Shown: in pieces, positions 32,647 through 37,638 of the stretch
Layout: each line of letters starts with the position of its first letter
How positions within the stretch are numbered: position 1 is the stretch's first letter
Origin: Dehalococcoidia bacterium
Lineage (GTDB): Bacteria > Chloroflexota > Dehalococcoidia > Tepidiformales > Tepidiformaceae
Reading direction: 5' to 3'
Assembly (NCBI GenBank): GCA_020847985.1
Contig: JADLBC010000008.1
Span: 372,001 to 436,000, forward strand
Length of the DNA: 64,000 nt
Made by a program: the position numbers and the translations under genes
Notes under the pieces: generated by a model
What the model saw: only the letters and a program-made list of their open reading frames with translations
Told to the model about the DNA's origin: nothing
Database searches by the model: none

Positions 32647-33483
32647 CTACGCGTGCTTCACATCGTCGATGCGGTACTCGATCGAATTGCCGTTCGGCAG
32701 TTCCACCGCGACCGTTTCGCCTGCCATGCGCCCAAGAAGCTGGCGGCCCACGGGCGATTCCACGCTGATCCGGTTCTGCCGCGCATCGGCCTCGCGCGCG
32801 CCCACAAGCTGGTACGTCTGCGATTGCCCGTTGTCCGCGCGCGTCACCGAAACCGTCGATCCCACCACCGAGCGCTCATCTCCGGCCGTTCGCTCCACCA
32901 CCACGGCCCGCTTCAGCGTCTCCTCAAGCGACTTCAGCTTGCTGTCGATGAACGCCAGCCGTTCGCGCGCCGCATGGTAGGGCGCGTTCTCCCGCAGGTC
33001 CCCGTCCGCGCGCGCGACCTCGACGGCATGCACCGTCTCCTCGCGCTCGTCGCGCAGCCGCCCGACGTCCACCTTCAGCTGGTCGATGCCCTCCGCCGTC
33101 ATCTCGACCGGCGGGTCTTCCGTGCGCGTCCCCGTGCGATTCGCCGTCGCCACCGACCGGCCCGCGACCTTCCGCACGCGAATGTGAATTCCGTAGTTCG
33201 ATCCCGTGTACTCGCGCTTCTTCAGAAACTGGAACCAGGACTTCAGCGCCTGCACCCGTTCCTGCGCGTTCGGGTCCGAAGACTTGATCTCCCGTTCCGC
33301 GTAAAGCTCCACGCGGCTGCCCGTGAGGTAGGTGAGCACCTTCTCTTCGCCGGTGCTCTTCACGAAATGGCGGATGTATTGCTCTTGCGTCCGGCGTTGC
33401 TCGTTCTTGAGGGAGGTGAGGTATTGGTCCAGCGCCTCCGCGAGCGTGAGGTTGGTTGCTGGTGGATCGAAATCATCTGCCAT
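32647..33483 (-). CDS. GreA-like transcription elongation factor with N-terminal integrase-type core-binding-like domain
   Basis: 278 residues, against about 158 for ordinary GreA. Residues ~120-278 match GreA: a coiled coil with the tip GDLRENAPYHAARERL (acidic D and E kept, as needed for RNA cleavage stimulation) and the C-terminal FKBP-like part ending SPVGRQLLGRMAGETVAVEL. Residues ~10-105 (LTLAEALDQYLTSLKNEQRR, then YIRHFVKSTGEEKVLTYLTG) look like the SAM-like core-binding domain of tyrosine recombinases; there is no catalytic recombinase domain. It could tether the factor to DNA or to RNA polymerase. It is divergent from rsmG, with 23 bases between starts. Confidence 0.8.
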   Translation of the reverse strand: MADDFDPPATNLTLAEALDQYLTSLKNEQRRTQEQYIRHFVKSTGEEKVLTYLTGSRVELYAEREIKSSDPNAQERVQALKSWFQFLKKREYTGSNYGIHIRVRKVAGRSVATANRTGTRTEDPPVEMTAEGIDQLKVDVGRLRDEREETVHAVEVARADGDLRENAPYHAARERLAFIDSKLKSLEETLKRAVVVERTAGDERSVVGSTVSVTRADNGQSQTYQLVGAREADARQNRISVESPVGRQLLGRMAGETVAVELPNGNSIEYRIDDVKHA

Positions 33484-36198: not shown

Positions 36199-37638
36199 TC
36201 AGGCCTGCCCCGGCGCCCCCGCCAGCCGCACCTTCGCCTCGTCCCACAGCGCGTCCAGCCCGGCGAGGTCAAGGTCGCGCAGGTCCAGCGCACGCTCGCG
36301 CGCCAACTCCTCCACCAGCCCGAAACGGCGCCGGAACTTCGCGTTCGCGCCCCGCAGCGCCTGCTCCGCATCGATCCCAAGCCGCTGTGCGATGTTCGCC
36401 ACCACGAAGAGGATATCGCCGAACTCATCCTCGCGGTCGCCGTCGCCCGCCTCCGCCCGCGCGAACTCGTGCATCTCCTCCGACAGCTTCTCCAGCGGAC
36501 CTTCGATGTCCGGCCAGTCGAACCCGATGCGCCGCGCCCGCCCCTGGATCGATTGCGATTCCGCCAGCGCGGGCAGCGCCACGGGGATCCCCTCGAGGAT
36601 CGACGAACGCGGCTTCTCCTGCTGCTTCAGCGCATCCCACTTCAGCGCCACCTCTTCCGCCGATTCGGCCGTCGTGCCGCCGAAAACGTGCGGGTGCCGC
36701 CGCACGAGCTTCCGCCCGATGTGCTCCACCACGTCCGCGAGCCCGAGGGTGCCCTCGCGCTGGCCCACCTCGGCGTGCATCAGCACCTGCAGGAGGACGT
36801 CGCCAAGCTCCTCCGTCAACCGCGCCGAATCCCCCGCGTCGATCGCGTCCAGCGTCTCGTAGCACTCCTCCAGCAGGTGTTGGCGGAGCGATGTGTGCGT
36901 CTGTTCGCGGTCCCAGGGGCAGCCACCCGGCGCGTGCAGCCGCGCCACGATCGCACGCAGCCCATCGAATCGCCGCACATCGTCCTCTGCCGCGATGGCC
37001 GGCACGAACACGCTATCGAGGTAGCTCCATGGCCGCCGGTCCAGTTCGGCCAGCGGTACGGTGTCCACCCGCTCGTCCGCGCCGCCCAGCGCGCGTAACA
37101 CGGTCACCGGGTGGTCCGACGGGTACACGTCCAACAGGTCCAGCTTCAGCCCCGCCGCCGCATCGCGGTCGAACACCTGGCTGATGAGCGCCGGGCGCTG
37201 CGTGTCGATGCGCAGCGCGAGCGCGTCGCACAGCTGCACCCGTTCGAAGTCCACGCCCAGGGCCGTCGCCGCCACATCGGCGAAGCTGACCCCGGGATAG
37301 AGCTTCACCCCGATGTCCCGTTCCTTCGCCACCGCCAGCACGCCCGCCACGGTGGCCTCGGCCATGAGCGGGTGCCCCGGCACGGCGTACACACCGTCAC
37401 CCGCCTCGGCGAAGGCGATCACCCGCTCCACCACCGCCGCGTACGCCTCTTCGAAGCTCAACCCGCGCTGGTAGATGTCGTCGCACGATGCCCACGCCCG
37501 GCCCGGGTCCAGTTCGGCCACCGTCGGGTGATGCGCCGTGCGCAGGAGCACCGGCAGCCCGCTCGCGAGCAAATCCCGCACCGCCACCGTCAGCAGCGAT
37601 GCCGATCCCGGCCCCAGCCCGGCGATGTGAAGCGTCAT
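36199..37638 (-). CDS. mazG: MazG nucleoside-triphosphate pyrophosphohydrolase fused to tetrapyrrole-methylase-like domain
   Basis: 479 residues, the YabN-type fusion. Residues 1-~220 resemble SAM-dependent tetrapyrrole methylases (HIAGLGPGSASLLTVAV at the N-terminus, GVYAVPGHPLMAEATV). Residues ~235-479 are two MazG modules: CPWDREQTHTSLRQHLLEEC followed by the metal site EECYETLD...EELGD, and DEFGDILFVVANIAQRLGID. It hydrolyses non-canonical or excess NTPs to NMP plus pyrophosphate. It lies 42 bases after glgA on the same strand. The methylase part probably lacks its own pathway; function of the fusion is unknown in general. Confidence 0.92.
   Translation of the reverse strand: MTLHIAGLGPGSASLLTVAVRDLLASGLPVLLRTAHHPTVAELDPGRAWASCDDIYQRGLSFEEAYAAVVERVIAFAEAGDGVYAVPGHPLMAEATVAGVLAVAKERDIGVKLYPGVSFADVAATALGVDFERVQLCDALALRIDTQRPALISQVFDRDAAAGLKLDLLDVYPSDHPVTVLRALGGADERVDTVPLAELDRRPWSYLDSVFVPAIAAEDDVRRFDGLRAIVARLHAPGGCPWDREQTHTSLRQHLLEECYETLDAIDAGDSARLTEELGDVLLQVLMHAEVGQREGTLGLADVVEHIGRKLVRRHPHVFGGTTAESAEEVALKWDALKQQEKPRSSILEGIPVALPALAESQSIQGRARRIGFDWPDIEGPLEKLSEEMHEFARAEAGDGDREDEFGDILFVVANIAQRLGIDAEQALRGANAKFRRRFGLVEELARERALDLRDLDLAGLDALWDEAKVRLAGAPGQA

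Follow-up and report, generated by a model that had tools for sequence, protein, structure and literature searches.

Gre factors are textbook, widespread proteins that are usually thought to act through RNA polymerase alone. One gene in the window studied here, i.e., the whole stretch of 64,000 nucleotides that was analysed, raises the question of what such a factor becomes when it is joined to a further domain. The initial annotation described a GreA-like protein preceded by a part that resembles the SAM-like core-binding (CB) domain of integrases. It must then be asked what the additional part is, whether it is a genuine and old component of the protein, and how it would bear on transcript cleavage.

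Architecture of the fused protein

The open reading frame runs from position 33483 down to 32647 on the minus strand, begins with ATG and encodes 278 aa (Table 1). Because the stop-to-stop frame measures 282 aa, the start can be shifted by at most 4 residues, and the long reading is independent of the choice of start. Pfam places GreA_GreB_N at residues 127-195 (8.7e-20, 71.1 bits against a gathering score of 24.5) and the GreA_GreB C-terminal domain at residues 207-276 (2.7e-22, 79 bits against 26.9). Among solved structures, the best match is 1grj, E. coli GreA (E 7.1e-28), which shares the coiled coil, the tip acids and the C-terminal docking domain at 37% identity over 148 aligned residues; VIA-align superposes residues 124-278 of the predicted model on the same structure with a Z of 17.4 and 148 residues aligned. 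D162 and E165 align with D41 and E44 of E. coli GreA, so that the fused protein possesses the acid pair found at the coiled-coil tip of Gre factors. In E. coli, D41 and E44 help to form a contact with the catalytic Mg that is essential (PMC7527559). The GreA-like C-terminal part with intact tip acids, first read from the sequence, is thus upheld by both Gre Pfam domains and by the alignment of GDLRENAPY to E. coli GreA.

The fused protein differs from E. coli GreA by ~125 extra N-terminal residues that carry the CB domain, and by a tip that reads ENAP instead of ENAE; residue 168 is a proline, whereas the other Gre tips compared mostly have E, D, A or G. Though the match is strong, the protein also misses the curated NCBIfam GreA equivalog cut-off (139.6 against 167) as well as that of TIGR01462 (131.7 against 139), and is therefore filed as a Gre-superfamily protein and not as an NCBIfam GreA equivalog. 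The analysis confirms that residues 126-277 make up a Gre transcript-cleavage factor and that an additional domain (~9-106) precedes them; cleavage activity is predicted from homology, the conserved acids and the fold.

Table 1. Features of the fused gene, in window positions.
Feature	Position	Strand	Basis
Whole fused gene, 278 aa + stop	32647..33483	minus	ORF and translation
CB (SAM-like) domain, residues 9-106	33166..33459	minus	AF2 model, integrase structure matches, hhalign 97%, XerC/XerD models in orthologs
Flexible linker, residues 107-125	33109..33165	minus	pLDDT <50 at 108-118; fastest-changing part in most pairs
Gre N-terminal coiled coil, residues 126-195	32899..33108	minus	PF03449 8.7e-20; long helices 130-158 and 167-192
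Tip GDLRENAPY, residues 161-169, acids D162 and E165	32977..33003	minus	E. coli GreA alignment
Gre C-terminal (RNA polymerase-docking) domain, residues 202-277	32653..32880	minus	PF01272 2.7e-22; structure match 1grj

Identity and constraint of the N-terminal domain

Pfam finds no match in residues 1-125 of the single fused protein. Among 52 ortholog N-terminal domains scanned one by one, matches to Phage_int_SAM_4 are scattered and weak (5/52, best 5.2e-4), with unrelated families at similar levels (MarR 2/52, best 8.3e-4), and the phrog_1 integrase matches 7/52. The Pfam and phrog scans would not by themselves decide the matter, which was settled by profile and structure comparison. With a limit of E 1, the XerC model matches 32 of the 52 domains, 2.2e-6 being the best value, and the XerD model 28 of them; the window's own domain, as a single sequence, gives a weak XerC match (0.038). 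When the profile of the domain is aligned by hhalign to a Xer CB profile, built from 15 aligned Xer-type recombinases of related genomes, the probability reaches 97% over 94 columns (E 1.2e-10). As controls, 20 column-shuffled profiles reach at most 2.3% and the reversed profile 0.13%, while the N-terminal domain gives 0.65% when compared with the Xer catalytic part, and the Xer CB profile gives 0.11% when compared with the Gre part. A profile search of the PDB returns 3nrw, the N-terminal domain of an integrase, as its top match (E 8.5e-5, the next being 0.11). In the organism's own genome, the sole other match of the profile at E up to 1 lies inside a XerD homolog (E 0.025).

The predicted structure leads to the same family. 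The full AlphaFold2 model, made with 80 orthologs, has a mean pLDDT of 91 and contains in its N-terminal domain helices at 14-24, 27-44, 55-65 and 73-89 and a short fifth at 97-100, with pLDDT mostly ~95-98; it falls below 50 in the linker, at residues 108-118. With a full-model pTM of 0.56, the relative placement of the N-terminal domain and the Gre part is not predicted. In VIA-align searches with the full model, residues 9-104 superpose on 3nrw with a Z of 12.5, an rmsd of 2.4 and 96 residues aligned (Z 12.5-12.8 across the predicted models of the full protein and of the domain alone), and the next matches are the lambda integrase CB domain (Z 10-11) and XerD (Z 10.7, 84 aligned). Predicted alone, the domain has a pLDDT of 92.5, and the first 27 rows of its structure search are integrases or integrase-fold proteins (Xer, MrpR, YopR, Ndc10), the last being Ndc10 at Z 5.6 and the following row standing at Z 5.3. 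Matches among viral structure models are again mostly integrases.

A resemblance of this kind could in principle reflect convergence of a small helical bundle. Helical folds can reach middling Z scores through their common arrangement, structure alignments give only 6-21% identity to known CB domains, and Foldseek with the domain alone returns weak E-values (best 0.011, none below 0.001). Convergence is nevertheless hardly credible in view of the independent hhalign evidence with its negative controls, the NCBIfam (XerC/XerD) and PDB profile matches, and a structure search that remains within the integrase fold down to Z 5.6. Comparison of sequence profiles and of predicted structures therefore establishes the N-terminal part as a tyrosine-recombinase CB domain devoid of its catalytic partner. 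The integrase-like N-terminus proposed in the initial annotation stands on all three routes (hhalign to Xer CB, XerC/XerD models in orthologs, integrase structures), and its outright alternative, an ordinary coiled coil or an unrelated fold, gave way to a separate helical domain of CB type. The proposed lack of a catalytic domain holds as well: the Arg-His-Arg-Tyr catalytic domain of tyrosine recombinases is absent from the fused protein, whose remainder is Gre by Pfam. As this remainder is Gre and the N-terminal domain does not match the Xer catalytic part, the protein is not a recombinase.

The CB domain of Cre, XerD and lambda Int turns its second and fourth helices towards DNA. In the fused proteins, conserved lysines or arginines occupy positions 30, 39, 42 and 48, in helix B or just after it, positions 76, 81, 88 and 89 in helix D, and positions 102, 104 and 105; conserved acids (16, 28, 47, 57, 63) lie chiefly in helices A and C, plus the turns beside helix B. 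The net charge of the domain is positive in 79 of 81 sequences, with a range of -1 to +12, i.e., it is not strongly basic in all. From the fold and the conserved basic residues, DNA binding by the domain appears likely. A CB-fold domain may also have given up DNA for another partner and serve now as a contact module for protein or RNA, which would clamp RNA polymerase or the extruded RNA, or cover the Gre part until needed. A shared fold does not show function, the 81 sequences contain no invariant column in this domain, and RNA or an acidic protein surface could likewise be contacted by a basic face. This alternative is possible but rather doubtful, since it is the DNA-facing elements of the recombinases, two helices and a tail, that carry the conserved basic residues here.

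The domain is also read as protein. Among three organohalide-respirer genomes, pN is 0.004-0.031 in the N-terminal domain at pS 0.44-0.50, with 0.037-0.064 in the Gre part and 0.047-0.094 in the linker. With pN this far below pS, the domain must be translated, and in these organohalide-respirer genomes the constraint on it is no looser than that on the Gre part; in more distant genome pairs, it often changes somewhat faster than the Gre part. Codon comparison thus indicates that the N-terminal domain is under strong purifying selection and, because orthologs across the class carry it as well, it is not a chance extension.

A remaining question is whether the main product could be a short GreA started at the internal Met128, with the upstream part untranslated or with two isoforms. 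The fused gene does have an ATG at codon 128. Moreover, GreA of D. mccartyi CBDB1 (cbdbA743) is reported to carry an acetyl group at K17, to a greater extent in stationary phase (PMC7918482). Judged on the sequences of three relatives (L070, L073, L074), this number fits a count from the internal Met of the Gre part, which places a Lys at 17 in 3/3, and does not fit a count from the upstream Met, which places none there (the lysines being at 22, 23, 38 and 40). The annotated D. mccartyi GreA thus seems, as far as the reported number goes, to start inside the real gene. The number may, however, only reflect a shortened annotation, and an internal start is supported neither by codon evolution, as the upstream codons evolve like coding sequence, nor by Met conservation (Met at 128 in merely 31/81 sequences), nor by Shine-Dalgarno-like words (21/81 before the internal Met against 28/81 before the upstream start). 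Such a start is accordingly very unlikely. On the K17 count, the public annotation of Dehalococcoides GreA may omit the conserved N-terminal domain.

Distribution of the fusion and the fate of the normal-length paralog

The distribution was surveyed in a sample of 301 genomes of the phylum (Chloroflexota). The fused form is found in 39 of the 41 sampled genomes of the window genome's class (the exceptions being G224 and G253) and in at least 34 of the 260 sampled outside it, i.e., 33 listed, one of which is cut by a contig end, plus G262 (= L297). The genomes of the closest family that carry it include Tepidiforma flava (L109), which NCBI places in class Tepidiformia of the Chloroflexota and which the taxonomy used in the survey places in the same class as Dehalococcoides-like genomes. 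When PF03449 was searched in 27 genomes, the fused-length protein was the sole match in 22; the other five had the short form only (n=3), a fragment (n=1, G224) or no match (n=1, G253). Genomes with the fused form as the sole Gre found include Dehalococcoides-like organohalide respirers: eight f14 genomes have 20 to 53 reductive-dehalogenase matches each (E up to 0.001), which suggests that they are organohalide respirers of the Dehalococcoides/Dehalogenimonas type.

The ortholog loci analysed are the best 80 of 400 confirmed, and most are titled Dehalococcoidia, Chloroflexi or Chloroflexota. In a tree of the Gre domain, from which L234, L216, L258 and some three quarters of L299-L323 were omitted, a single branch (SH-aLRT 93) sets the 67 fused rows apart. 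The sole short row on their side is L259, on a long branch and from an assembly with 8% contamination. This pattern is compatible with a single fusion event, and the joining of the CB domain to Gre is old.

Several loci depart from the usual arrangements. One ortholog locus is titled Deltaproteobacteria (L138), perhaps through a binning error. In G224, the sole PF03449 match (L258) is a 138-aa open frame in which a Cys-rich stretch precedes a Gre-like coiled coil with the tip GDLKENSGY, without a C-terminal Gre domain. In G042, a member of the same class in which no fused form was found, two short Gre genes lie side by side (L055), with tips DITDSAQY and DITDDSGQY. In L327-L338, mostly from family f55 of the same phylum, Gre genes sit in open frames of ~340-800 aa, many with a Pro/Ala/Arg-rich stretch and no CB domain before the Gre part; these long frames may represent a real disordered extension or merely a high-GC open frame.

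The initial annotation advised looking for a normal-length GreA in the same genome. One is present, with 158 aa (G000:C54:22910-23353; L056:3881-4354), and unexpectedly it has lost both cleavage acids: its tip, GTSQNDAEY, has T and N at the positions of D41 and E44. The fused protein is thus the only acid-bearing Gre found in its own genome. A short paralog occurs in 36 genomes of the family, and none of the 32 examined (G011, G019, G023 and G034 being left out) has an acid at either tip position; among these 32 genomes, G001 has no visible fused form and G005 only a fragment. Elsewhere in the class, the 14 short paralogs of 13 fused-bearing genomes include none with D..E and one with D..D. 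Outside the class, 35 of the 39 short paralogs of fused-bearing genomes are without the D..E pair, many having D..D; the exceptions are three D..E tips with an inserted residue (GNDPAENL) and one canonical tip (L259). In 16 genomes without a visible fused form, the short forms keep D..E or E..E in 16/16. Wider stretches around Gre genes in 20 genomes, 8 of which are among those 16 (for G252, around its other Gre gene), contain no N-terminal domain beside the Gre gene.

Both D and E are kept in 67/67 fused rows, which represent 65 distinct genes (L325 repeats L086 and L326 repeats L065). These acid counts come from profile searches, except for rows L094 and L109, which were found by a tip-pattern scan; the ortholog scan itself used Gre-tip patterns, so tip conservation in the 81-row alignment is partly selected, and since the sequences are related, the counts reflect few events. 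A D in place of E at the tip may still be functional. Loss of both acids, as in the window genome's family, should not allow the known mechanism.

Genes around the 81 loci (80 plus the window) were clustered, with crude gene calling, and no shared neighbour emerged; the broadest clusters, once the Gre gene and an antisense artefact are set aside, cover 14 and 13 loci. In the window, rsmG/GidB lies divergently beside the fused gene, and a PP2C phosphatase gene follows downstream. With no neighbour shared, no function is drawn from the neighbourhood. Further along, positions 36199-37638 on the minus strand encode a single protein with MazG and tetrapyrrole-methylase domains.

A possible DNA-tethered cleavage factor

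These findings led to a model, to which a probability of about 0.6 is given, of an ancient Gre fusion in which the CB domain likely holds DNA, cleavage is the task of the fused form and the short paralog has taken another role. The C-terminal 150 residues would dock at the secondary channel of RNA polymerase, and the tip acids would reach the active centre and set off cleavage of backtracked RNA, as in E. coli GreA. Gre factors have their N-terminus outside the secondary channel, at the foot of the coiled coil; from there, the linker of ~20 residues would bring nearby duplex DNA within reach of the CB domain. The domain would hold duplex DNA near the polymerase, unspecifically or with weak specificity, so that the factor would stay with transcribing complexes or become locally enriched on DNA. 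The short paralog would serve elsewhere, e.g., as a non-cleaving competitor for the secondary channel. Most simply, the CB domain would be read as a tether to DNA by which the cleavage factor stays close to the transcribing polymerase.

One may tentatively extend this model to the whole class: backtracked polymerase would be rescued by the DNA-tethered Gre, with which the acid-stripped GreA would compete without cleaving, and the two would form an on/off pair for cleavage, with the tether making rescue dependent on the local DNA or on roadblocks. Site specificity or a role in replication-transcription conflicts, both raised by the initial annotation, is possible but unsupported. In a stronger form of that idea, the fused protein would be a dedicated regulator, acting in such conflicts or at specific loci, and not mainly a cleavage factor; P168 sets its tip apart from other Gre factors, and conservation throughout the lineage suggests an important role. 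Both acids are nonetheless kept in every fused row, in 22 genomes no Gre other than the fused form was found, and no conserved neighbour points to another pathway, all of which makes a dedicated regulator improbable.

The fused protein combines parts with known counterparts. With the CB domains of XerC/XerD, lambda integrase and 3nrw (Phage_int_SAM families), it shares the four-helix SAM-like fold and a weak but specific sequence similarity; unlike tyrosine recombinases, it has Gre as partner in place of a catalytic domain. MrpR (8a0a) and YopR (8bj6), both among the structure matches, likewise have a CB-type fold in a regulator without recombinase activity. Both regulate phages and retain a second integrase-like domain, whereas the partner here is Gre. 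Thermus offers a parallel in Gfh1 (2f23, 3aoi), a Gre paralog whose role has changed and which coexists with a true Gre factor, a situation proposed here for the short paralog; there, the inhibitor is of normal length, while in the present case the extended protein is the one that bears the acids. The NCBIfam models PRK06330 (718 positions, 'transcript cleavage factor/unknown domain fusion protein') and PRK14720 (906 positions) are also Gre fusions, but their Gre partners are long regions of unknown nature. In GreA/B-C conflict proteins, the Gre part is joined to TPR, PIN and effector domains (PMC8195603); these fusions share the pairing of Gre with another domain, yet the partners differ, and the accessible part of that paper names no CB domain. 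A literature search that covered few subscription papers found no description of a Gre-CB fusion. Each part being known, what seems new is that the two are fused, how widely this fusion occurs, and the acid loss that accompanies it in the normal paralog.

In the organohalide-respiring Dehalococcoides, it is suggested that the annotated GreA start may remove a conserved domain. Alongside the fusion, an erosion of the catalytic tip is revealed in the ordinary paralog. Where the sole acid-bearing Gre of a deeply conserved lineage carries a DNA-binding module of the recombinase type, transcript cleavage would be coupled to contact with DNA.
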